Origin: Diphasiastrum complanatum
Lineage: Eukaryota > Streptophyta > Lycopodiopsida > Lycopodiales > Lycopodiaceae
Assembly (NCBI GenBank): GCA_029204225.1
Contig: MU831832.1
Location: forward strand, 1-64,000
Direction: 5' to 3'
DNA: 64,000 nucleotides
The translations under genes and the position numbers were made by a program. Every line of letters begins with the position of its first letter. The stretch's first letter is position 1. Positions 1,215 through 54,999 of this stretch are shown one piece after another. Below the pieces are notes generated by a model that worked only from the letters and a program-made list of their open reading frames with translations, was not told the origin of the DNA and made no database searches.

Positions 1215-1979
1215 ATGGCTTCCAATGGTGGGATCATGCTAGAGTCTAGTGAAAGGTTGAGTTCATCAAACTACTCTACTTGGAAAGTGAGGATGGAGTC
1301 CTTACTTGAGTTGAATGAACTCATGGACATAGTTGCAGAAATTGAAGAGAGACCTCTCACACTTCAAGAGCAACAAAGGTTTGATAAGAAGGCCAAAAGG
1401 GCTCTTCATATCATTAAAATGAATGTTACAAATGAACTTCTCAAGGAAGTTGGAAAGTGTCAAAGTGCAAGTGAGGCATGGAATGCCTTAAAGAAGCTCT
1501 TTGAATCAAAGTCCACATCTAGGGTATTGACCCTAAGGAGACAAATATTTTCTAGTAGGCAAAGAGAGGGTGAAAGTGCTCATGCATTTATCTTGAGAGT
1601 TAAGTCCCTAAGTGATGATTTAGCATGCATTGATGAGAACATAAAAGATGGTGAAATAGTCCAAGTTATGTTGAATGGTTTGCTAAATGAACATGCTAAC
1701 CTTGTGCAAAGTTTTGCCATTCAAAGAGTCTTGCCAAGTGTGGTTGACTTGCAAGAAATCTTATTGGCTGAAGAACATAGGTTGCAATCAAAGCTTGATG
1801 GTGCATCCTTGCAAGGTGGAGGTGAAGAGGCTTTCTTCACAAAGGCAAATTCAAGGGCAAAGGTAAAGGCAAAGGGAAATGGTCCAAAGGTGGTAACTTT
1901 GATCATGATGATCACTCTTCCTCTTCCTCTTCTACTAAGAACAATAAGTCAAAGTTCAAGTGCTTTTATTGTGGGATAA
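1215..1979 (+). CDS. gag: Copia Gag of element A, frameshifted near its C-terminus
   Basis: Structural capsid protein of a copia retrotransposon, of the gag-polypeptide/UBN2 family. The N-terminus contains the family's SNYSTWKVRMESLL motif and the body contains RVLTLRRQIFSSRQREGES. The frame is lost about residue 210, where 1841-1846 reads AAAGGC but element E has AAAGGGC. One missing G sends the last roughly 40 codons out of frame. The +1 frame from there reads through a CCHC zinc knuckle (CFYCGIKGHFANEC, about 1953-1994) and without a stop into pol. Gag and pol were therefore one ORF before the deletion. The ATG at 1215 aligns with the gag start of element E. Confidence 0.9.
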   Translation: MASNGGIMLESSERLSSSNYSTWKVRMESLLELNELMDIVAEIEERPLTLQEQQRFDKKAKRALHIIKMNVTNELLKEVGKCQSASEAWNALKKLFESKSTSRVLTLRRQIFSSRQREGESAHAFILRVKSLSDDLACIDENIKDGEIVQVMLNGLLNEHANLVQSFAIQRVLPSVVDLQEILLAEEHRLQSKLDGASLQGGGEEAFFTKANSRAKVKAKGNGPKVVTLIMMITLPLPLLLRTISQSSSAFIVG

Positions 1980-2086
1980 AAGGTCATTTTGCAAATGAAT
2001 GTTATAAGAAGAAAAGAGAGCAAGGAGAGAGGCAAGGAAATCTTACAATAGATGAGGAAGAACATAACACATGTGAATCACTTGTT

Positions 2087-5000
2087 ATGACTTCAAGTTT
2101 GTTAGCCAACATAGATGATAATGATCCTTGGTGGATTGATAGTGGAGCCTCATCTCACATGACAAGACATAAGGAATACTTTACATCCTTATTGTCTTAT
2201 GAGGGAGAAGGTAACATCATCTACACTGCAAATGATGGTCAATGTGACATCAAAGGCATAGGCACTATTCCTATTTCCCTTTCAACAAATAGAAAAGCAA
2301 ATCTTGAAAATGTTTTGTACATTCCTTCAATCACTAAGAATTTGCTTAGTGTAAGTCAAATGATTGACAAAGGACTTGATGTGGAGTTCATTGGAGATGC
2401 ATGTTTGATAAGTAAATGTGGATCCTTGATTGCTCAAGGTAGGAGGCATGGTAAACTTTTCAAGCTTGATGCATGTGTGATCTCTAATCATGAAGGATGT
2501 ATGGCTAGGGAGCAATTGACAAACCAAGAAGTTTGGCACAAGAGGTTGGGCCATCCCAACTTCAAATCTTTGGAGGTAATGGCAAAGAAAGAGCTTGTTC
2601 TTGGTCTCCCTAAAAGTCTTGTTGCAAACAATAGTGTTTGTGAACATTGTGCCTTGTCCAAATCTCATAGACTTGCTTATTCTAGATCTACTTCTAGATC
2701 TAAAGAAGCTTTTCAACTTGTGCATTCTGATATTCATTCTTCTAGTACAACTAGCAATGGTGGGGCAAAGATGTATGCAACTTTCATTGATGACTTTAGT
2801 AGGTATACTTGGATCTATCTTCTTAAAAGTAAGGATGAAGTGTTTGCTGCATTTGTCAAGTTCAAGAATGAAATGGAAAACCAATTCAATACAAAGATCA
2901 AATGCTTAAGATCTGATAATGGAGGGGAATACACCTCAAATAGGTTCAAAGACTTTTGTATAGCACATGGGATTAAGAGGGAGATGTCTAGTCCTAGGAC
3001 TCCACAACAGAATGGAGTGGCCGAGAGGAAGAATAGAACCCTTTGTGAATGTGCCAAGGCAATGAGACTACATGCTAATCTTGCTAAGTCTTTTTGGGGG
3101 GAAGCTTTAGCATGTGCTAACTATCTATGTAATAGATGGACAAGTGCTTCCTTGGATGGTAAAACTCCTCATGAGGTTCTTTATGGTAGAAGGCCGAGTG
3201 TCAAGCATTGTAGGATCTTTGGATGTACATGTTTTGTCAATATCACACTTGATGATAGAACTAAAGAAGATCCTTCATCAAAGAAGGGTGTGTTTGTTGG
3301 CTATAGTGAAGTAAGCAAGGCCTACAAAGTGTACATTCCTTCTACAAAGAAAGTTGTCATAAGTAGGGATGTCATCTTTCATGAAGAGAATGTTTCCAAT
3401 GTTGTTGATGTTGATGTTGATGTGCCTACTAATCATCATGATGTGCAAGATGTCTTGGATGAAGATGAAGATGCCACTCCAAAGCAAACTTCAAGGAAGA
3501 CTCAAAGGCAAAGGGCTAAGCCATCAAGGCTAACCTATGATGAAAAAGGAAAGCAAGTGGTGGACAACTCTAACCTTGCTTTTCTTACCTCTTTTGATGA
3601 ACCAACTTGTGTAGGTGAAGCAATTCAAAAGAAGGAATGGATCCAAGCCATGGATCATGAGCATCAAGCACTCATCAAAAGCAACACATGGAGGTTGGTA
3701 AAGCTTCCAAAGGACAAGAAGGCAATTGGTTGTAAGTGGATCTTCAAGATCAAGACAAATCAAGATGGATCAATCAACAAGTACAAGGCAAGGTTGGTGG
3801 CAAAGGGGTATGCTCAAGAATATGGTATTGACTATGATGAGACCTTTGCACCCGTGGCAAAGATGGTAACTATTCGAATCCTAATCTCTCTTGCAACTCT
3901 TTATGATTGGGATATGTGGCAAATGGACGTTACTAATGCCTTCTTGAATGGTGATCTTGAAGAAGATATTTACATGGAGCAACCCGAGGGCTATGTTTCA
4001 CATGATGAGCCTAATCATGTGTGCTATCTCCAAAAGAGTTTGTATGGGCTAAAGCAAGCACCAAGGAGTTGGTATGCTAAGCTCAATTCCTTCTTACTTT
4101 CTCAAAACTTTGTTATGAGTGAGTATGATCATTCTCTCTACTTTAGATTGAATGAAAATGATATCACTTTACTTTTGATCTATGTTGATGACATTATCTT
4201 AAGTGGTGGTAACAATCTAGATATAGATGAAATCAAGATGGCACTCAAAAGAGAGTTTGAAATTCAAGATCTTGGTAAACTTCATTATATCTTAGGAATA
4301 GAGATTATTAGAACTTCTAAATCTACATTCATATGTCAAGAAAAGTATGTTAACTCTATTCTAAAAAGGTTTCATATGGAAGATTGTAAAGTTGTTTCTA
4401 CTCCTATGGAATCAAATGTAAAGCTAACTACAAGAAGTAATGAAAGATCCTTCAAGGACATTACTCTCTATAGAAAGCTAATAGGATCTCTTATATGGTT
4501 AACCATCACAAGACCTGATCTAAGCTTTGTGGTTGGTAAACTAAGTCAATTTATGCAAGATCCTAGTGAGGCTCATTGGAAGCTAGGAAAGAGAGTACTT
4601 AGATACATCTCGGGATCTAGAGATTTTGGCATCTTGTATGGAGGTACTACACCTAACCTTTGTGGATTTTCAGATTCAGATTTTGCAGGTGATCAAATGG
4701 ATAGGAAGTCAACAAGTGCCTTTGCAATCTATCTTGGAGATGGAGTGGTCTCATGGCTATCAAAGAAGCAACCAACTATCTCTCTATCTTCCACCGAAGC
4801 CGAGTACAAGGCATTAACAACATGCACCAAGGAGATTCTTTGGATCAAGAGGATGTTATTGGATCTTCACTTGCTGGAACCAGAGAAGACTCCAATCATA
4901 CTTTGTGATAACCTTTCAGCCCAAAGCTTGGCAAGCAATCCTGTTTTTCATGCAAGGAGCAAGCACATTGAGATTGCTCACCATTTTGTGAGAGATCAAG

Positions 5001-5167
5001 TCATTGCCAAAGAGGTGGAGCTTCAACATGTCTCTTCAAAGGAGTGTGTGGCTGATATCTTCACCAAACCATTGGGAAAGGACCTATATTTAATGCATAG
5101 ATCTAATCTTGGAATGTGCTCAAAGACTATGTTGAAACTAGCATCCAATGTTGAAGAGGGAGTGTGA
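2087..5167 (+). CDS. pol: Copia Pol polyprotein of element A (protease, integrase, RT, RNase H)
   Basis: Replication polyprotein, 1026 codons from the first ATG, though the same frame is open upstream through the zinc knuckle. Protease shows DSGA at residues 18-21. The GAG-pre-integrase motif WHKRLGH is at about 150 with a following CEHC. The integrase core has SDIH near 213, SDNGGEY near 276 and NGVAERKNRT further on. The RT runs from about residue 533 and holds the catalytic YVDD at 699-702. RNase H has FSDSDFAGD near 861, STEAEY, and the terminal ADIFTKPL near 989. The stop codon falls inside the 3' LTR, as in element E. All catalytic motifs seen are intact, so this copy could supply RT, but not Gag-Pol, because of the upstream frameshift. 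Confidence 0.97.
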   Translation: MTSSLLANIDDNDPWWIDSGASSHMTRHKEYFTSLLSYEGEGNIIYTANDGQCDIKGIGTIPISLSTNRKANLENVLYIPSITKNLLSVSQMIDKGLDVEFIGDACLISKCGSLIAQGRRHGKLFKLDACVISNHEGCMAREQLTNQEVWHKRLGHPNFKSLEVMAKKELVLGLPKSLVANNSVCEHCALSKSHRLAYSRSTSRSKEAFQLVHSDIHSSSTTSNGGAKMYATFIDDFSRYTWIYLLKSKDEVFAAFVKFKNEMENQFNTKIKCLRSDNGGEYTSNRFKDFCIAHGIKREMSSPRTPQQNGVAERKNRTLCECAKAMRLHANLAKSFWGEALACANYLCNRWTSASLDGKTPHEVLYGRRPSVKHCRIFGCTCFVNITLDDRTKEDPSSKKGVFVGYSEVSKAYKVYIPSTKKVVISRDVIFHEENVSNVVDVDVDVPTNHHDVQDVLDEDEDATPKQTSRKTQRQRAKPSRLTYDEKGKQVVDNSNLAFLTSFDEPTCVGEAIQKKEWIQAMDHEHQALIKSNTWRLVKLPKDKKAIGCKWIFKIKTNQDGSINKYKARLVAKGYAQEYGIDYDETFAPVAKMVTIRILISLATLYDWDMWQMDVTNAFLNGDLEEDIYMEQPEGYVSHDEPNHVCYLQKSLYGLKQAPRSWYAKLNSFLLSQNFVMSEYDHSLYFRLNENDITLLLIYVDDIILSGGNNLDIDEIKMALKREFEIQDLGKLHYILGIEIIRTSKSTFICQEKYVNSILKRFHMEDCKVVSTPMESNVKLTTRSNERSFKDITLYRKLIGSLIWLTITRPDLSFVVGKLSQFMQDPSEAHWKLGKRVLRYISGSRDFGILYGGTTPNLCGFSDSDFAGDQMDRKSTSAFAIYLGDGVVSWLSKKQPTISLSSTEAEYKALTTCTKEILWIKRMLLDLHLLEPEKTPIILCDNLSAQSLASNPVFHARSKHIEIAHHFVRDQVIAKEVELQHVSSKECVADIFTKPLGKDLYLMHRSNLGMCSKTMLKLASNVEEGV

Positions 5168-5817
5168 AAATTGTCAACATTTCCTAGCTAGTTTGAGGCC
5201 TAAATTGGCTAAAATTGTAAATAGTTTTGGTTCTGGAGTTTCACACGTGTGAACCAGGCCACAATGTTTTTATTTACTGTATTTTTTTAGTATGATGAAG
5301 TGTCAAACTTCATACCCTTCAAAATGAGACCATTTTGATGTATTTTGGTCATATAAGCCATTTTTAGCTATTTTTCCTATATAGGGAATATCTAGGGTCA
5401 AGTACCTTCTAGAGAGAGGAGAGAGAGTCATCTTCCTCATCCATAAATAGTAGGGAAGTCGTGGAGAACAGGTTGGAGAAACCTTTTGTATGCTTCATTG
5501 AGATCAATAGATCATTGTCATTGTTTCTTCCTCCATTGAGAGCATTGTTGTGTGTATTGTCTTCAAGCTATTGTGTATGATCTTAGGTGCTTTCCAAAAG
5601 TGGTAGGCTGATGTATTATGGACTGTATAATGCTATTTTGGTCCGCACTTGATGTTTATGGAAGTTTCCATTTGTGATAAATGCTTTTTGATCAAGTTCT
5701 TTGCATTCTAGGTAGCATAGAATGTGTTGCCAATTCCTAGCTTATGTAGTTTGGAGTGCAAGCATTTAAGCCAATGATCTTGGAGTTTAGATCCACTTAG
5801 GATCTGTATTTTTCACA
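5163..5817 (+). repeat. 3' LTR of element A
   Basis: Starts TGTGAAAATTG directly after the polypurine tract GAAGAGGGAG (5153-5162) and ends in CACA. Length is 655 bp. A TATATAGG box at 5378-5385 is a plausible U3 promoter. Its end repeats the sequence at 1-33, and its start resembles the LTR of element E. Confidence 0.92.
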
Positions 5818-44622: not shown

Positions 44623-44724
44623 ATTAATATTCACCAACTGGCAAAAAAAACATTTATGTTTATTGGAATGTACATACATACACATACATATACACACCCA
44701 TACATATATACAGGATACACATGC

Positions 44725-45381
<657 letters not shown>

Positions 45382-45789: not shown

Positions 45790-47354
45790 GCTATCGTGAA
45801 GTAATTTGCTGCCATAAAATCTGTCCTGCAGTAAACCAATGACAATTCCTTGATTTGCACTTTCTCTCTAAGGTTTTGATATGCTTGCTCTGAGAATGAA
45901 ATCTCGGATTTAGAGATAGTGCGATTGTGCTTTGATTATCACAATAGATAGTCGTTGGATGTGGCTGAGCAAGGTCGATATCTGCAAGTAGGTTTCTTAG
46001 CCAATTGCCTCCTTGGTAGCATTTGTGACAGCTATGTATTCCAATTCTGTTGATGATAATGCTACTAATGTCTGTTTTCGGCTGTACCATGAGATTGGTC
46101 CTTGATTGAACAAGAACACAAATCCAGAAGTCGATCTTCTGGTGTCGATATATCCTACCCAATCTGCATCTGTGTAACCTTTGAGCCAATGATGGCGAAA
46201 ATGGATACTGCTTCATTTTCTCCTTTTATGCCTTGGTTTGAGGACATTGCTCCTTTGACAGCTTCAAACCAAGGTCGAGTGGGAAGTAGCTCGATTTCCA
46301 GTTGGCCATTCTATATTTGTCCACGTTGGTGAGATATCGTTGTTGACTGAAGAAAAGTTGTTTGCTGGATTGAATTCATTGAATCTGAATTTCGAGACAG
46401 TAATGGGCTGGATCCATATCAGTCATCATGTATTCCTATGATAGCATGCATTTGGTGTCCTTCAACAAATTCAAATTTTTACTAAATAGTAATGTATCAT
46501 CTACATAAAGAGTGATGATTATGAAGAAATCTGATACAGACTTGAAATAGACATTCGAGTCTGTCGAGTTTGGAATGAAACCATTCTCGATTAGAAATGC
46601 ATTAATTTTCTGGAACGAGGCTCTTGGTGACTGTTTCAGACCATATAGAGTCTTGTAGATTTTGCACACTAGGTGCTCCTTATCCTTCAGTTCGTATCCC
46701 TATGGCCGCAACATATAAATCTACTCTTTGATCGTCTCGTTGAGGAAAGTGGTATGGACATCCATTTGGTGGACTTCAAGATCTGCTAGAGCTGCATAGG
46801 AGAGTAGTAATCGAATCAAAGCATGCTTCACAACAGGGCTGAAGGTCTCGGAATAATCCAGATCTAGAATCTGGGAGAAGCCTTTGGTGACCAGCATGGC
46901 CTTGTATCGATTTAATCTTTCTTCAACATCATACTTCGCTTTATATATCCATTTGCATGGAATTGGATTTCGATCCTTTGGCAACACTATTACATTCCAC
47001 GTTTGATTCTCGATCACAGAATCAAATTTTGTATCCATTCCAGCCTTCCACTGATCAGCATTAGGTGTTGACATTGCCTCTGAAATAGTGTTTGGTTCAT
47101 GCACAAAGTAGCAGACTAGATCACTCATAAATCGGGATGGAGTTGTCTGGATCAGTTCGATCTTCTAGGCTGAATTTTGATCCTCTGATTGATTCAATCC
47201 GTTGGTCCTGACTCATCTTTCGAGTCAGTATATAGTCATGACACAAGGTGCTAAACAATGTAACCCAACTAAGCAATTGTGCTAATTGATAATAAAGTCT
47301 TTTGAAGTCCTTATGTGACTTGGAATCTCCAAAATATATATTTTTGCCATACAT
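45790..47354 (-). pseudogene. Copia pol remnant: RT and RNase H
   Basis: Minus-strand reading in several frames. 47,128-46,721 gives an RT start: QWKAGMDTKFDSVIENQTWN, IPCKWIYKAKYD, ETFSPVVKH, VHQMDVHTTFLN. 46,669-46,436 gives KTLYGLKQSPRASFQKI and YVDDTLLFSK, the RT active site. 46,216-45,791 gives RNase H sequence with TTIYCDNQSTIALSLNPRFH and SKHI. A stop and frame changes separate these blocks. The family is distinct from A, D and E. Integrase, gag and the 5' LTR were not found upstream. Confidence 0.85.
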
Positions 47355-47631: not shown

Positions 47632-47720
47632 TCACAAATGTGTAATTGTGCACACCACAATGAGCAACATAATAGGAAGCTTGTGAATGTTTGTAAGTGG
47701 CATTGCATCAAGGGAGAGAC
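47632..47720 (+). pseudogene. Copia gag fragment, left part, interrupted by element E
   Basis: One frame reads a decayed Gag segment ending MFVSGIASRE, with an internal stop. It matches MFVSGIVSRE in the Gag of element D. The reading resumes at 53,746 on the far side of element E. The last five bases, GAGAC, are the target duplication. Confidence 0.75.
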
Positions 47721-48370
47721 TGTGAAAGATTTCAGATCCTTAAGATCCAATCTACTTGAATGATCTTTGGTTAGAAAGAGAAATACACTACCAATTTCAC
47801 CAATGTAGAAAAAATCAGCATCTACACACAATTTGAGATGCAAACACTAATAGAACTTGATCAAACTTGAATGAAATGATTATGTACTGTTGTTGTCCGT
47901 ACAAAACCAGCAAGCTACTGTATTTCACACGTGTGGATCCAAAAATAACAAATATAGATCATTCTACACATAGAATTGCAAGCAATCACCAAGATAGTCA
48001 CCAATGGATAGTAGAACCCAAGAGAACCATGTATAAGCATGAAATGAGATAGAGAAGAGAGAAGATGACTCTCTCCACGAGTTACATCCTTTTATAGCAG
48101 GTCCAAACCCTATTTGGCCACTTGGCTTTCCCACCAAAATGCTAACCCTACCAATTTTGGGTCTAGATTCAATGTACCCAACTTATTCAAATTGAATCTA
48201 CTCAAACTCGCATTCTATCTTCCCCACACTTTCAAAAAGTGTTTATTCAAATGAAATTTAGACTAATGAACTTTGAAAAGTCAACCTCTAAGTCTAAAAC
48301 AAGTTTTGGCCTAAATATGCCAAATATGGAAATATTGCAAAATGTAATGAAACTAGTTGAATCTTTCACA
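47721..48370 (-). repeat. 3' LTR of element E
   Basis: In element orientation it starts TGTGAAAGATTCAAC and ends CTGAAATCTTTCACA. A TATAAAAGG box is at 48,096-48,088. The polypurine tract GAAGAGGGAG is at 48,380-48,371. Confidence 0.95.
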
Positions 48371-48926
48371 CTCCCTCTTCAACTAGTTTTAGCATAGACT
48401 TTGATAATACTCCAAGTGAAGTCCTATGCTTCATGAACAAGTCTTTTCTCAATGCTTTGGTGAAGATATCAGCTACACATTCCCTTGAAGACACATGTTG
48501 AAGCTCCACCTCCTTTGCAATGACTCGCTCCCTCACAAAATGATATTGTATCCCAATATGCTTGCTCCTAGCATGAAAGATAGGATTTGATGCCATTCTT
48601 TGGGCTGATTGATTGTCAAAAAAGATGATTGGGCTCTCTGAAAAATCCAGCAAGTGAAGATCCTTGATCATCCTTTTGATCCATACCATCTCCTTTGTGC
48701 AATGTGTAAGAGCTTTGTACTCGGCCTCACTAGATGACAATGAGATAGTGGCTTGTTTCTTTGACATCCATGATATAGCTCCATCACCTATGAAAATACA
48801 ATAAGCACTAATGGATTTCCTATCCATTACATCTCCAGCATAGTCCGAATCTGAAAATCCAAAAAGATTAGGTGATGATCCCTCATACAATATGCCAAAA
48901 TCTCGAGTTCCAATGATGTACCTCAA
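48366..48926 (-). CDS. RNase H segment of element E Pol
   Basis: The frame has GFSDSDYAGDVMDRKS, SSSEAEYKALTHCTKE, a DNQSA motif, HARSKHI and ADIFTKAL, so it is a copia RNase H. It ends with a stop inside the 3' LTR, as in element A. It lies in a different frame from the preceding pol ORF: the boundary with the foreign segment at about 48,953 is out of frame, so RNase H would not be translated as part of the same polyprotein without a frameshift. The frame is otherwise undamaged. Confidence 0.92.
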   Translation of the reverse strand: MRYIIGTRDFGILYEGSSPNLFGFSDSDYAGDVMDRKSISAYCIFIGDGAISWMSKKQATISLSSSEAEYKALTHCTKEMVWIKRMIKDLHLLDFSESPIIFFDNQSAQRMASNPIFHARSKHIGIQYHFVRERVIAKEVELQHVSSRECVADIFTKALRKDLFMKHRTSLGVLSKSMLKLVEEGV

Positions 48927-48937
48927 AACTCGCTTTC

Positions 48938-51631
48938 CTAGCTTCCAATGCTCCTAGCATAGTTTTTGCCAATAGAACTTTGATCCATCATAAGAATGAT
49001 CTTCTTCCTAAGAATAGATCTCCTTTCAATGATCATGTAATGCTCAAAATAGAAACAACCATAATTGATATAGAGAATAGTGTCCACTTGGGATGCTTCA
49101 CTATTTCTTACATCAATTTTACATGTAAAAATGTGACTAGAACATGAAGAATCAAATAGAATGTAAATGAAATGATTCCACCATGCTTCCAACTCTGAAC
49201 TCTCTGGAAAAATACAGCAAACAAACAATAAATGTGAGTGATCAACTTTTGCTTGCATGTCTCCTCCTTCTTTGTCCTTTGTTGCCATGTATCCACCATG
49301 ATACTCCATGAATGAGCCTCCATCTTCATCTTGCCACAAGATACCATCAAACCTTAGAAATCCATGAGTAGGTGAGTACATTAATGATGAAAATCCAGCA
49401 CCACATGACTCCATAAACCAGGTAGGTTGCACTAGTCCATCTTCAAGATCTACTTGACACAAGAAAATGACCATGAATTCACCAAAAATTGACAATCTCC
49501 AAGTATTGGCACCAAGTAGCTCAACACTTGCGAACTTAGCCATGGATGAGTGACATAATGAACCTCCAATAGCTTCATTTCCATCAGCAAAATCAGCCAA
49601 GAATGCTAGTACAAATCCAACATCAAAACAATGCTCACCAATGTAGCTAGTTTTACCATATCTTGACAATTTGCACACATCCACATGAAATTGCTCAAAC
49701 ATGAGATAGAAAAAGTAAAGTAAACTTGAACAACACTTCCTTGATGCTCCTTTGACCTTACTTGAGTCTTCAATATTCTGCAAAAATAGATCCATAACAC
49801 CTTTGCCAATTAGCTCTCCTTTGATACTCTTGACTAGCTCCAAATTGCCACCTTCCCTTTTGACTAGTTGAAGCGCTTTGAGATCAACCTCTTGATCTTC
49901 AACTTGACCATCAAAGTCATTGAACAAACTTTGTTTTCCAGATCCATTACTTGATTTTACAGCAAGATAACATCCGTCCACTTGCATAGCTCCATGTACA
50001 CAAGAAGATCCTCCAAAAGATGTTTCACTCTTCATAAGAGCTTGATACTCAAGATCCATTGCTTGGATCCACTCCTCTTCTTTCCTTGCCTGATCTACAC
50101 CTGTAGGCTCATCCAAAGAGGTTAGAAAAGCAACATAATTTCCAAAAACTACTTGCTTACCCTTTTGATCATATGTGAGCCTTGAAGGTACTTGTATTTC
50201 TCTTGATGTTCTCCTTGGCTTTTGACTTGATGAAGGTCCATCATCACCACCATCCAAAGTAGGATCCTTCTCATCAACATCAAGAATGTTAGATCCATCT
50301 ACTTTACCATCAATCATGCTTGAAGACACCTTTGGAATGTTTCCCTCATCAAAAATGACATCTCTACCAACAATCACTTTGTTAGTAGAAGGAATGTAAA
50401 CCTTGTAGGCTTTACTCACCTCACTATATCCAACAAAAATACCTCTTCTTGAAGATGGATCCTCCTTGGTCCTATCATCAAGAGTAATGCTGACATAGCA
50501 TGTGCATCCAAAGGTTCTTAGAAAGTTGACACTCGGCCTCCTCGTGAATAGCATCTCAAAAGGTGTCCTTCCATCCAAAATAGCACTCGACCACCTATTG
50601 CACAAGAAATTGGCACACAACAAAGCTTGATCCCAAAATAGTTTGTCAAGATTGGCACTTAACCTCATAGCTTTAGCCCTTTCACATAAAGTTCTATTCT
50701 TCCTTTCAGCCACTCCATTTTGTTGTGGGGTCCTTGATATTGTATACTCCCTCTTGATCCCATGCTCATCACAAAAGGCCTTGAACTTGTTAGATATGTA
50801 CTCACCACCATTGTTTCCTCTCAAGCACTTGATCTTTGTGGAAAATTGGTTCTCCCTTGCATTCTTGAACTTGACAAAGACATCATACACTTCATCCTTG
50901 CTCTTTAGTAGATAGATCCAACAAAATCTACTAAAATCATCAATGAATGTTACATACATCTTAGCTCTACTATTGCTAATTGTAGTAAATCCATGAATAT
51001 CCGAATGTACAAGTTGAAAAGGCTTTGTACATCTAGAAATAGATCTAGTATAAGGTAGTCTATGTGACTTAGACAAAGCACAAGACTCACAAACATGCTT
51101 GTCATTACTTAAGGAACTTGGAAGACCAATCACAACCTTCTTCCTTGCCGTTACCTCCAATGACTTGAAGTTGAGGTGCCCCATCCTTTTGTGCCAAACC
51201 TCTTGAATAGAAATTTGCTCCCTTGCAACACATCCACTTTGGTTAGCAATAACACAAGCATCAAGTTTGAACAACTTCCCTTGCCTTTTACCTTTTCCAA
51301 TCAAGACATCCTTCCTTTTGATCAAACAAGCATCTCCATCAAACTCCACCTTGAGGCCCTTACTTAGCATTTGACTCACACTAAGCAAATTCTTGGTAAT
51401 AGATGGAATAAACAAGACATCCTCCAAATGAAGATTCCTATCTGTAGAGAGAGAAATACGAATTGTGCCAATCCCTTTGATTGCACACTCACCATCATTG
51501 GCCATGTAGATCACCCTCTTGTCATCTCCATATGCCAACAAAGAAGTGAAGTATTCTTTGTGAAAGGTCATGTGTGAACTTGCTCCACTATCAATCCACC
51601 AAGGATCTAGATCTCCATCATTAGCAAGCAT
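48938..51631 (-). CDS. Element E Pol: protease and integrase fused to a foreign 350-codon segment
   Basis: 897 codons. Residues 1-537 are copia protease (WWIDSGASSHM near 11-21), pre-integrase (WHKRMGHLNF) and integrase (SDIHG, LRGNNGGEYIS, NGVAERKNRT), ending in the linker EWIQAMDLEYQALM. In this integrase the second catalytic aspartate appears as N (RGNNGG instead of RSDNGG), which should abolish activity. Where RT should begin, residues 538-893 instead read a sequence unlike any retroelement protein I know. The frame then stops at 48,938, just past the return to RNase H homology. The start is the first ATG after a gag-pol frame break at about 51,637. Confidence 0.88.
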   Translation of the reverse strand: MLANDGDLDPWWIDSGASSHMTFHKEYFTSLLAYGDDKRVIYMANDGECAIKGIGTIRISLSTDRNLHLEDVLFIPSITKNLLSVSQMLSKGLKVEFDGDACLIKRKDVLIGKGKRQGKLFKLDACVIANQSGCVAREQISIQEVWHKRMGHLNFKSLEVTARKKVVIGLPSSLSNDKHVCESCALSKSHRLPYTRSISRCTKPFQLVHSDIHGFTTISNSRAKMYVTFIDDFSRFCWIYLLKSKDEVYDVFVKFKNARENQFSTKIKCLRGNNGGEYISNKFKAFCDEHGIKREYTISRTPQQNGVAERKNRTLCERAKAMRLSANLDKLFWDQALLCANFLCNRWSSAILDGRTPFEMLFTRRPSVNFLRTFGCTCYVSITLDDRTKEDPSSRRGIFVGYSEVSKAYKVYIPSTNKVIVGRDVIFDEGNIPKVSSSMIDGKVDGSNILDVDEKDPTLDGGDDGPSSSQKPRRTSREIQVPSRLTYDQKGKQVVFGNYVAFLTSLDEPTGVDQARKEEEWIQAMDLEYQALMKSETSFGGSSCVHGAMQVDGCYLAVKSSNGSGKQSLFNDFDGQVEDQEVDLKALQLVKREGGNLELVKSIKGELIGKGVMDLFLQNIEDSSKVKGASRKCCSSLLYFFYLMFEQFHVDVCKLSRYGKTSYIGEHCFDVGFVLAFLADFADGNEAIGGSLCHSSMAKFASVELLGANTWRLSIFGEFMVIFLCQVDLEDGLVQPTWFMESCGAGFSSLMYSPTHGFLRFDGILWQDEDGGSFMEYHGGYMATKDKEGGDMQAKVDHSHLLFVCCIFPESSELEAWWNHFIYILFDSSCSSHIFTCKIDVRNSEASQVDTILYINYGCFYFEHYMIIERRSILRKKIILMMDQSSIGKNYARSIGS
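48953..50020 (-). other. Foreign segment replacing RT in element E
   Basis: About 1,068 bp. It has no similarity to the RT of element A (3683-4575) and no YVDD. Homology with A stops after codons for QALMKSE and resumes at codons for HWKLGKRVLRYI. The segment is open in the pol frame over its full length. Its translation is rich in C, W, F, D and E, with phrases such as SSCVHGAMQVDGCYLAV, LSIFGEFMVIFLCQVDLEDG and FMEYHGGYMATKDKEGGD. Several hydrophobic stretches occur but none is a clear membrane helix. Capture of a spliced host coding sequence or of another element is possible. I do not recognise it. Confidence 0.85.
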
Positions 51632-51634
51632 ACA

Positions 51635-52495
51635 TCACAAAAGCATCATCATTTGCATCTTGCACATCCAAACCATCTTCATCAAGAGTAAGATTACCTT
51701 GCTTGTCTCTTGATCTCTCTTCTTCTTGTAGCACTCACTTGCAAAGTGTCCTTTGATGCCACAATAGAAGCACTTGAGCTTTGATCTATCCTTCTTTTTG
51801 CCACTTGAAGAAGCATCCACTTGATCTTGCCCTTTAGACCACTTGCTTTTGGTTTTTCCCTTGAATTTGCCCTTTGTGAACATAGCATCCTCTTGAAGTG
51901 TCGATGTAGATCCACCTCTTGCTTGAAGCCTATATTCCTCATTGATCAAGATCTCTTGAAGATCCATCAAACTTGGCAAAGTCTTTTGAATAGCAATACT
52001 TTGAACAATGTTAGCATGAGCATCCAACAAGCCATTAAGAATCACTTGAATAAGCCCTCCTTCCTTAATGCTTTCATCTATGCAAGCTAACTCATCATTC
52101 AATGCTTTCATTCTCAAAACAAAAGTACTTGGACTTTCTTCATTCTTTTGCAAACAAGAAAAGATTTGCCTTCTTAGAGTCAACACTCTAGAAGTAGACT
52201 TGGATTCATAAAGCTTCTTCAATGAATTCCAAGCTTCCAAAGATGATGTGCACTTACCAACTTCCTTGAGAAGTTCATTGGTAACATTCATCTTTATCAT
52301 GTGTAGAGCCTTCTTGGCCCTCTTGTCATACCTCAATTGATCTTGTTGTGTTGCTGGTCTCTCCTCCAAACCTACAACAATATCCAAAACATCATTCATC
52401 TCAAGAAGTGACTCCATCCTCACTTTCCATAATGAATAGTTACTTGAGGTAAGCCTATCATTGGCTTCCAACATGACTCCAATTGAGGTTGCCAT
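51635..52495 (-). CDS. gag: Copia Gag of element E
   Basis: 286 codons beginning MATSIGVMLEANDRLTSSNY. The Gag body (SLWKVRMESLLEMN, RVLTLRRQIFSCLQ, NGLLDAHANIVQS) closely follows element A. It contains an intact basic stretch FTKGKFKGKTKSKW and the zinc knuckle CFYCGIKGHFASEC (about 51,731-51,772). After the knuckle a one-base deletion near 51,700 leads out of frame to a TGA at 51,637-51,635. The linker to protease reads correctly in the neighbouring frame and a second shift restores it before pol. Gag itself is complete and could assemble particles. Confidence 0.93.
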   Translation of the reverse strand: MATSIGVMLEANDRLTSSNYSLWKVRMESLLEMNDVLDIVVGLEERPATQQDQLRYDKRAKKALHMIKMNVTNELLKEVGKCTSSLEAWNSLKKLYESKSTSRVLTLRRQIFSCLQKNEESPSTFVLRMKALNDELACIDESIKEGGLIQVILNGLLDAHANIVQSIAIQKTLPSLMDLQEILINEEYRLQARGGSTSTLQEDAMFTKGKFKGKTKSKWSKGQDQVDASSSGKKKDRSKLKCFYCGIKGHFASECYKKKRDQETSKVILLLMKMVWMCKMQMMMLL

Positions 52496-53083
52496 GTAGC
52501 AATGACCTGATCTTATCTTTCAACCTACTTCAATGCACAAAGCACTCCTTTGAACAACAACAAATGCTTTCAAAAAAAATCACCAAGATTTGAAACTATC
52601 TCACAAATTCTCTTCTAGCACTTATCCAAGCAAATCAACACATAGAATCATGGAATCTTGATCAACCTATGATCTATCCTCAATCTAATGACTTTTGCCA
52701 CTTCCTAAGATTGAAACACACTCAAATGAAGTCCAGCAACCTCACTATCTAGAGATCCAATCAAAATTAGGGTTTTGACAAAATCAAAAAAATTGACTAT
52801 TCCAAATCTACATGCAAATGCTGAAAATTTGATATGCAATCTATAAGCAACCACTTAGGTTGAACCAATGATCCAAAAATCAGCCAAATCCAGCATGTGA
52901 ATTCAAAAATCGGAATTAAACAAGTATATTGACCTATTTAGTGTTTTGATCTACAAAAGATCCAATCTACAAAAGCAAAAAATCCGATTTTGGTGTAGAA
53001 TCCTCTCTAGCATGCTCTAGACTTGATATCTTCACCAAATCATTGATAGATCTGATTTCCTCCTTCATAACCTGAAACACAAG
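52496..53083 (-). other. Leader of element E
   Basis: About 590 bp between the primer-binding site and gag, without ORFs. Half the length of the leader in element A. Confidence 0.7.
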
Positions 53084-53094
53084 CTCTGATACCA
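53084..53094 (-). promoter_or_regulatory. Primer-binding site of element E
   Basis: The minus strand reads TGGTATCAGAGCTT directly after the LTR end; complementary to initiator-methionine tRNA. Confidence 0.9.
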
Positions 53095-53745
53095 TGTGAA
53101 AGATTTCAGATCCTTTAGATCCAATGTACTTGAATGATCTTTGGTTAGAAAGAGAAATACACTACCAATTTCACCAATGTAGAAAAAACCAGCATCTACA
53201 CACAATTTGAGATGCAAACACTAATAGAACTTGATCAAACTTGAATGAAATGATTATGTACTATTATTGTCCGTACAAAACCAGCAAGCTACTGTATTTC
53301 ACACGTGTGGATCCAAAAATAACAAATATAGATCATTCTACACATAGAATTGCAAGCAATCACCAAGATAGTGCACCAATGGATAGTAGAACCCAAGAGA
53401 ACCATGTATAAGCATGAAATGAGATAGAGAAGAGAGAAGATGAATCTCTCCACGAGTTACATCCTTTTATAGCAGGTCCAAACCCTATTTGGCCACTTGG
53501 CTTTCCCACCAAAATGCTAACCCTACCTATTTTGGGTCTAGATTCAATGTACCCAACTTATTCAAATTGAATCTACTCAAACTCACATTCTATCTTTCCC
53601 ACACTTTCAAAAAGTGTTTATTCAAATGAAATGTAGACTAATGAACTTTGGAAAGTCAACCTCTAAGTCTAAAACAAGTTTTGGCCTCAATATGCCAAAT
53701 ATGGAAATATTGCAAAATGTGATGAAACTAGTTGAATCTTTCACA
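53095..53745 (-). repeat. 5' LTR of element E
   Basis: 651 bp, with the same ends as the 3' LTR. The TATAAAAGG box at 53,471-53,463 is the likely promoter for the element transcript. Confidence 0.95.
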
Positions 53746-53796
53746 GAGACTTCCAACCTTTGAAAATCTACACAAGATCTTGTTACAGGAGGAACA
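53746..53796 (+). pseudogene. Copia gag fragment, right part
   Basis: Continues the Gag reading broken by element E: RLPTFENLHKILLQEEQW, matching LPSFDELIGILMQEEQ of element D. It ends where Helitron helicase sequence starts. Confidence 0.75.
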
Positions 53797-54051: not shown

Positions 54052-54999
54052 TGTGAGAAATTGTCAGCTAGTTTGATCTTTTCTGTTTGGCAATTGAGGC
54101 CAATTTGCATTTTTAGACTTAGAGATATATATTTCAAAGTTATATTAGTCTAAACGTTTTTGAATTACCACTTTTGGAAAGTGAGGAAAAGTAAGTAGGC
54201 GAGTTTGGACCCATTCAAATTTGAATGATTGGTACATTGAATCTAGTCCATATTATGAGTAGGGTTTCGGATCTAGAAGTTTCTATAGAGGGAAGCCACA
54301 TTGTAGAAGTTCATTTGTTGATGGAATTGCTCAATCAATTGAGTACAGAGTAAGGTGACTCTCAGTCAGTGATGGCCAACCAGTAGTCGCTATCAGATAG
54401 CGATGGTCAGTCAAAAAAGAGTTTCATTAATGGCTTGCTAATTTGAAGAAACATGCACTCATGTTTGTCATAGAATAAGTACACATATCTTGCATAGGAG
54501 TGCGATGAAGTGTCCTATAGAAATGCGCTTGAGTTTCCTTGGATGGTAGTTAGAAATCAGAGTTAATCTAATATACATTTTATGTAAGCTCTAAATGTGA
54601 TATTGTAATTAGTGTACAGTTAATTAGATTTGTTGTATTCAGGTGTATTCGGGATGTGACCCGTTAGGATATATTGATCGAGCACTGATCCCGTAGATGG
54701 CTACTTGGGTTAGCCGGGTAGCCACACATAGGAAGAATTAGCTTGTACATAATTTTATACAGTGTATGCTATACTCGAGGGCATGTCTCGAGTTTGTCGG
54801 TCGAATGTGGCCATATCAGGCCCGACCTTAGTTTGACAAGTGGTAGGCCAATTTTAGGACACCTACCTTTTCATGCAGTTTGTGAATACTCTATATGTAC
54901 AATGTTTTTTTGTAATCTATTAACTTTTGTTGATAAGGAGTGGCTATGGTGATTGTGTGATGTGATCTGCATACTGCACTAGATTCTATCGGAATTTCA
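54052..54999 (+). repeat. 5' LTR of gene-less LTR element F
   Basis: Starts TGTGAGAAATTGTCAGC and ends GGAATTTCA, followed by a primer-binding site. Its first 250 bases align with the LTR of element E (shared TTTTAGACTTAGAG, ATTAGTCTAAA and GTACATTGAATCTAG). The end, from about 54,845, is repeated at 56,885-57,057. Confidence 0.75.

Follow-up and report, generated by a model that had tools for sequence, protein, structure and literature searches.

Template switching between families of plant long terminal repeat (LTR) retrotransposons is known (PMC1950507; PMC13317346, on Veju and BARE-2), as is the co-evolution of autonomous and non-autonomous copia elements (PMC9744471). We describe a copia element, E, in a window of 64,000 nucleotides of the Diphasiastrum complanatum genome (contig MU831832.1, positions 1 to 64,000), in which a segment of 1,068 bp occupies the slot of the reverse transcriptase (RT). 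As we propose for E, BARE-2 and VejuL, which are attributed to template switching, are spreading chimeras of two co-packaged element RNAs (PMC13317346, PMC1950507), and BARE-2 is a copia element that presumably borrows its missing GAG, akin to the missing RT of E (PMC9744471). BARE-2 and VejuL had an LTR region or unknown sequence introduced (PMC13317346), whereas in E the RT slot would have been swapped for part of the open reading frame (ORF) of another family. In wheat RLC_Angela, as may be the case for E and its sister, non-autonomous and autonomous copia elements of one family amplify side by side (PMC9744471). The non-autonomous Angela elements have decayed coding sequences with many frameshifts and stops (PMC9744471), whereas E combines long open frames with an internal swap, and the second family described below, X, has long open frames.

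The segment of E also lies in X, which is a second large non-autonomous copia family of the same genome. The explanation we favour, with a probability of about 0.72, is that E is the product of a double template switch (an RT-bearing sister of E, then X, then the sister again) and was mobilised in trans. The case would thus show a successful non-autonomous LTR family arising by exchange of the RT slot, with both parents abundant in one genome, and the role of template switching in giving rise to parasitic subfamilies becomes open to direct test. A search of titles and the first parts of abstracts, with most subscription papers outside its coverage, turned up no earlier description of an RT slot replaced in this way by the ORF of another family. 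The features of E, and the RT-bearing element A with which we compared it, are listed here in window coordinates.

47721-53745, minus strand: element E, a copia LTR element (LTRs, ORFs, Pfam, target duplication)
53746..53750, no strand: target-site duplication (TSD) GAGAC on the 5' side of E, read from the flanks
53095..53745, minus strand: 5' LTR of E (TGTGAAAGAT...ATCTTTCACA), 97.8% identical to the 3' LTR (Kimura two-parameter distance, K2P, 0.020)
53083..53094, minus strand: primer binding site (PBS) TGGTATCAGAGC, directly after the 5' LTR, presumably of the initiator-Met tRNA type
51635..52519, minus strand: gag ORF, with Retrotran_gag_2 and a zinc knuckle (ORF list, Pfam)
50021..51634, minus strand: protease, integrase and pre-RT linker in the pol ORF of E (ORFs, Pfam, comparison with element A)
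50018..50026, minus strand: 5' chimera junction, GGAACATGGAG in the sister, ACATGTTTTGG in X and GGAACATCTTTTGG in most E copies, with the 4 nt ACAT in common
48953..50020, minus strand: segment of 356 open codons that fills the RT slot, resembling the linker at its start and the RT C-terminus over its last ~170 nt, with an unmatched core
48938..48964, minus strand: 3' chimera junction, ...AACTATGC of X joined to ...AGGAGCATTGG of the sister, including the stop that ends the segment ORF
48371..48952, minus strand: RNase H region, which 20 of 21 copies have in another frame than the segment ORF
48371..48380, minus strand: polypurine tract (PPT) GAAGAGGGAG
47721..48370, minus strand: 3' LTR, which pairs with the 5' LTR
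47716..47720, no strand: TSD GAGAC on the 3' side of E, read from the flanks
1826..5164, plus strand: ORF of the comparator element A, 1113 aa, RT-bearing (RVT_2)

E has the traits of a Ty1-copia element: LTRs of the form TG...CA, a PBS, a PPT and a 5-bp TSD, matches to the Pfam families Retrotran_gag_2, gag_pre-integrs, rve and SH3, and an integrase that precedes the RT slot and RNase H. Its protease-integrase and RNase H parts have 67-73% amino acid identity to copia element A (67% for the protease-integrase-linker part). Element A has a normal RVT_2 domain (E-value 2e-78) at the place taken by the segment in E. Pfam found no RVT_2 in E, where the segment stands instead, and gave no match for the RNase H ORF. 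A first-pass annotation made from the sequence alone had described E as keeping gag, protease, integrase and RNase H around an absent RT, with a run open in the pol frame in its place and with intact LTRs and target duplication; all of this is confirmed. The gag-pol ORF of the window copy is itself interrupted, and one open frame of 1196 aa was reported in several other E copies.

The segment has no stop in its 356 codons on the pol frame, compared with 12-32 stops in the other five frames, and is the end of an ORF of 898 aa with upstream Pfam matches to gag_pre-integrase, rve and SH3. Simulated sequences of the same composition (Markov-2) had a mean of 14.6 stops and none of 2,000 was open, in line with the earlier claim that such a run is unlikely by chance. 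Codon-position composition was also non-random (chi2 33.5, versus a mean of 6.2 and a maximum of 25.9 in 500 simulations). A chance ORF alone is refuted by the simulations. A chance open frame in non-coding filler would fit the lack of visible protein-level constraint in E or X and of a predicted fold, but it is highly improbable given these simulations, a codon signature above all 500 simulated ones, and the open frames of up to 1203 codons around the homologous ORF of X.

The nature of the segment is not revealed by domain or structure searches. It had no Pfam match, no Rfam match and a single chance-level match in the PDB (E-value 0.28), and six alternative-frame fragments and the ORF of a full-length X copy, searched for a hidden origin in another frame, had no Pfam match either. 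AlphaFold2 predicted no fold for 11 sequences (nine of E type, two of X; mean pLDDT, the per-residue confidence, 31.7, and pTM, the predicted template-modelling score, 0.22), as may be expected from the shallow alignment. A Gypsy family of Phalaenopsis with an AlkB-type domain is, as here, an LTR family with extra coding sequence; its domain is recognisable and active in vitro, whereas the segment of E and X shows no domain, fold or constraint (PMC9289625).

We searched the host genome (1.74 Gb in 5,176 contigs) for further copies. The best 40 of 4,071 DNA candidates were scored, and all were essentially full length at identities of at least 98%; the 114 protein matches listed were 94-100% identical to the segment, and 30 of them carried one or two stops (counted by eye). 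The 3' junction of E occurs at 971 places on many contigs (at most one mismatch; none for a reversed-pattern control). We fetched 20 copies, making 21 with E itself. All 20 have the chimera, and in 19 the segment is directly followed by the start of RNase H, although some copies lack parts of the 5' half. A stop lies inside the segment in five of the 21 copies; such stops are consistent with neutral decay once a copy had inserted. Of the 21 records, 17 contain a pair of LTRs longer than 400 bp (K2P 0.014-0.041), and ten of these 17 show matching 5-bp flanks on inspection by eye. E is one of many insertions with a common defect, as is typical of a non-autonomous family. Because RNase H follows in a different frame, 20 of 21 copies, E included, have a stop in the segment frame four codons downstream of the segment. 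The only exception to the out-of-frame RNase H is copy L021, which has lost most of RNase H immediately after the joint (around position 2570) and whose remaining RNase H tail is in frame with the segment.

An assembly artefact or a one-off rearrangement might be suspected because the window contig duplicates a region of another contig, at C7:62.25 Mb (99.2% over 8.7 kb, with the same TSD). This is scarcely credible given the 971 junction places on many contigs and the same chimera in 20 fetched copies, which together refute a single copy or an assembly error. The window contig (C314) is a second copy, either a haplotig or a duplication, of C7:62248200-62256900, and the fetched copy from C7, L009, is the same insertion as E, with an identical TSD. 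Since the assembly holds such duplicates, true insertions are probably somewhat fewer than 971.

The lead to family X came from a diverged segment directly followed by a PPT and an LTR inside one fetched record. A search with this diverged segment gave 5,732 candidates, of which the best 40 were scored (closest after itself, 90%), and 11 further loci that were cut out and read belong to X. Elements of X have gag and protease by Pfam, followed by a long ORF that replaces pol; Pfam found neither integrase nor RT in them. By DNA comparison they lack RNase H except for its last ~40 bp, a question on which Pfam is silent, being blind to RNase H in E too. The segment homologue of X spans positions 3-1064 of the E segment in pieces that are 80-89% identical and ends at the PPT. 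The segment corresponds to the C-terminal third of the long ORF, which extends 331 aa further upstream and is continuous with its surroundings on both sides. Copies L045 and L046 (X-full) have the whole segment at 88-89%, and L050 also carries the 58-codon part that is missing from a subfamily, X-del, by an in-frame deletion of 174 bp. The frame of L045 runs to a canonical pol end (...KTMPKLVEEGV) and counts 1203 codons, by its length reaching back to gag. A protein search with the ORF upstream of the segment listed 121 matches at 89-100% identity, with open frames of up to 1203 aa; 33 of them carry stops (counted by eye). A 29-mer of the segment core is found at 5,396 places (at most two mismatches; control 0). 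The X copies L043-L050 thus show gag-protease and then a pol-length ORF with scrambled remnants of RT and linker, and the arrangement probably occurs at thousands of places. The most divergent X copy, used as a query for deeper relatives, had best 40 matches that were all 88-100% identical. In one record, L010, an X copy (1926-2896) abuts a 5'-truncated E copy (2895 onward) head to head; here the X part starts at segment position 5, very close to the breakpoint of E.

TR-GAG elements are non-autonomous LTR elements in which part of the coding capacity is retained. X, where Pfam finds gag and protease but neither integrase nor RT, is close to them and adds a long extra ORF, whereas E differs from them by the presence of its integrase and RNase H regions.

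Two observations point to movement of the segment from X to E. E shows two sharp breaks at the segment edges, where X is continuous at both. The homology of X to the pre-RT linker crosses the 5' breakpoint of E unbroken, hence the arrangement in X is the older one. As for timing, the segment is more similar between E and X-full than are the gag-protease region (74-79% identical between the families) and the LTRs (mostly 77-81%, matches ranging over 74-83%), even though gag is constrained and the segment is not; the segment thus moved after the families split.

The other proposed parent, an RT-bearing sister of E, is abundant in the genome, judging from its joints. The uncut joint between RT and RNase H, searched with a pattern excluding the bases of E, occurs at 3,213 places (at most one mismatch; control 0), and most of those listed read CTAGTGAGGAGCATTGG (PSEEHW). 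The 5' joint expected for the sister, MK(S/N)GTWRLV, occurs at 1,179 places (control 0). On contig C1, 15 of the 22 listed RNase H joints have a 5' joint 872-897 bp upstream, about the size of the RT slot of A. In the sister copy that we read, L051, the integrase end is 93% identical to E (311/333) and the start of RNase H is the same at 27 of 27 bases. The sister is continuous at both joints where E breaks, and the bases in common are ACAT at the 5' joint and 0-2 nt at the 3' joint. An internal deletion has removed the linker and most of RT from L051 (C1:2026990-2028020), which is another defective derivative of the sister lineage.

We infer the template switches from these observed junctions. 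One particle would have held two RNAs, from the RT-bearing sister and from X, and two switches would have occurred during reverse transcription. Minus-strand synthesis on the sister RNA would have covered its LTR, PPT and RNase H, then jumped at the start of RNase H to the 3' end of the X ORF, copied ~1,065 nt of it, and jumped back at the short common ACAT to the integrase-linker end of the sister. Such a product would keep LTRs, PBS, PPT, gag, protease and integrase, lack RT, and have RNase H out of frame, and its open frame would be inherited from the X ORF. It may then have been amplified with RT, and probably all proteins, supplied in trans by the sister or another copia element. It had been suggested from the sequence that the chimera transposed without an RT of its own. 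The 971 places, the TSDs, the LTR pairs and the abundant sister, all observed, support this; RT was most likely supplied in trans.

Several points weigh against this double switch. E reads ACATC where X and the sister read ACATG, a difference of one base beside the 5' microhomology. Identity between the E and X segments is patchy: it varies from 0.62 to 0.97 across windows of 60 bp, and the fixed differences are heterogeneously spread (p 6e-9), compared with 0.89-0.98 between X-full and X-del; the donor would thus be an unsampled form of X, or there were more than two switches. At least one of the 3,213 uncut joints is a variant of E. L051, the sole sister copy read, is without linker and most of RT and is 7% away from E in the integrase, and we infer rather than observe that RT was supplied by this particular sister.

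What the segment is made of was studied by comparing pieces with the pol of A, using 100 codon shuffles of each piece as controls, of which at most one reached the score. Pieces of the X ORF match, in order, RT (positions 2131-2175 and 2310-2370 of A), then the pre-RT linker (1711-1803) and, across the segment end, the RT C-terminus (about 2570-2742), followed by the pol end (3241-3339). Both the upstream X pieces and the match of E lie in the pol frame. For the upstream X ORF against the RT of A, hhalign gave an E-value of 0.00066 at a probability of 27% (reversed control, 0.49), and none of 400 shuffles reached the score. The end of the E segment matches the RT C-terminus of A with a score of 47 (shuffle maximum 43.5) and that of L051 with a score of 50 (maximum 42.5), unmatched by 300 shuffles in either case; the end of X itself is weaker (reached by nine of 300 shuffles for A and two for L051). 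The segment thus resembles the pre-RT linker at its start and the RT C-terminus over its last ~170 nt; the resemblance is weak, lies in the pol frame and exceeds that of shuffles. The core of ~830 nt (about positions 40-870) matches nothing convincingly and scores like codon shuffles against the pol of A. The whole segment protein gave z 0.2 against the RT of A, and hhalign of the E-segment profile gave nothing. The segment therefore matches a known retroelement domain at its two ends and not in its core. The initial view that a coding-like stretch replaces the whole RT holds in that the stretch is open and the RT domain gone, and requires amendment for the weakly RT-like last ~170 nt. An origin in gag, LTR, leader, RNase H or element antisense was rejected, the best of 126 piece tests (60 shuffles each) reaching an unconvincing z of 3.8.

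The segment could also be an RT that drifted beyond recognition in its own slot and frame. Its linker-like start, RT-like end, similar length between them (about 840 versus 767 nt) and shared frame would agree with this, as would the RT remnant that X holds upstream of the segment. Yet under neutral drift the core should be no less similar than the ends, whereas it scores like shuffles, and the remnant in X lies upstream of the linker, i.e., in scrambled order. We consider this origin unlikely.

In the first-pass annotation the segment was a foreign coding sequence captured by E. Maize Bs1 is, like E, an LTR element of a plant whose internal region contains inserted sequence of coding origin, but the inserts of Bs1 trace to identified host genes (PMC13317346), whereas the direct source of the E segment is another copia family. 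Direct capture of a host gene fragment by E in the manner of Bs1, with X later taking the segment from E, would be compatible with the open frame, the codon-position signature and the lack of Pfam, PDB or Rfam matches above threshold. It is made improbable by the linker homology that runs through the breakpoint in X, by the 3' end that runs into the pol tail and PPT of X itself where E breaks sharply, by the RT-like last ~170 nt, and by the greater length of the X ORF. The recognisable captured domain of Bs1-like elements was also lacking here (no Pfam match, nothing in the PDB better than an E-value of 0.28, no fold). As the same segment sits continuously in X, at the 3' end of the ORF replacing pol, E did not acquire it from a host gene as its immediate source, although the ~830-nt core may ultimately derive from one. 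The best 40-121 matches listed were filled by element copies and contained no genic parent, and a search for a diverged parent by one degenerate motif had no match (control 1).

The double switch from X to E would account for the open frame by inheritance, and E shows no sign of selection maintaining it. Fixed differences between E and X are distributed over the three codon positions as 27/35/21 in the segment (27 E rows, 11 X rows), as 20/7/30 in gag and as 17/24/48 in protease (19-20 E rows, 3 X rows), and the contrast between the segment and the two genes is significant (p 5e-5). Mean pairwise dN/dS of the segment (nonsynonymous over synonymous rate) is 1.24 between E and X, 1.22 within X and 0.73 within E. 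The segment is without protein-level constraint in E or X, whereas gag and protease are constrained between E and X. Within E, common variants of gag, protease and integrase taken together show no codon-position bias (20/23/21; p 0.007 versus the selected E-X pattern). E thus evolves as if none of the three mattered, which fits their supply in trans.

The frame of X may be another matter. Fixed E-X indels (9, 174 and 12 bp) and those of the most divergent X copy, L040 (12, 6 and 3 bp), are all multiples of three, compared with one of eight other segment indels (p 0.005; p 0.01 with a 1-bp change at the segment end added). This contrast is fragile: other classings give p 0.19 or 0.27, three of the eight other indels are common to two or three X copies, and the three of L040 come from one copy. 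There is no stop among about 93 fixed E-X changes, where 4.7 would be expected (p 0.008), and single-copy changes also include few (7/283, expected 4.3%, p 0.14), so that some picking bias is likely. Fixed nonsynonymous and synonymous changes number 79.5:13.5, a tendency to nonsynonymous excess over the neutral 23% synonymous (p about 0.07). Fixed and X-shared changes together differ from single-copy ones with p 0.015, or 0.11 once E-shared changes are included; the counts are small and the copies were drawn from best-match lists. The long frame of X seems, on thin evidence, to be kept although its amino acids change freely.

It is conceivable, if doubtful, that a real protein, fast-evolving, takes the place of pol in X and the elements derived from it. 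The X lineage would then have given up integrase, RT and RNase H and retained a single frame of ~1,200 codons that extends to the canonical pol end and is under selection, with amino acids changing at or above the neutral rate. Such a protein could be a host antagonist or a particle parasite, or the frame could merely shield the RNA from nonsense-mediated decay. The classing of indels, the small counts and the best-match sampling all count against a selected frame, as do L043 and L044, two X copies read upstream, in which the ORF behind gag-protease is read in another frame. A long frame that is unconstrained yet open is a more unusual matter than the E chimera, and a pol-length frame without a recognisable or constrained protein raises a testable question about its purpose. 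E shows that the ORF of X can pass to another family by template switching, if its origin is as we propose.

The surroundings of E contain other repeats. Just beyond its 5' LTR, positions 54086-54249 match this LTR at 76% on the opposite strand. Pieces of another copia pol (RT, RNase H) adjoin its 3' side on the minus strand (45791-47164), and a long simple repeat of the (TA)n type at 44681-44956 has spurious open frames on both strands.

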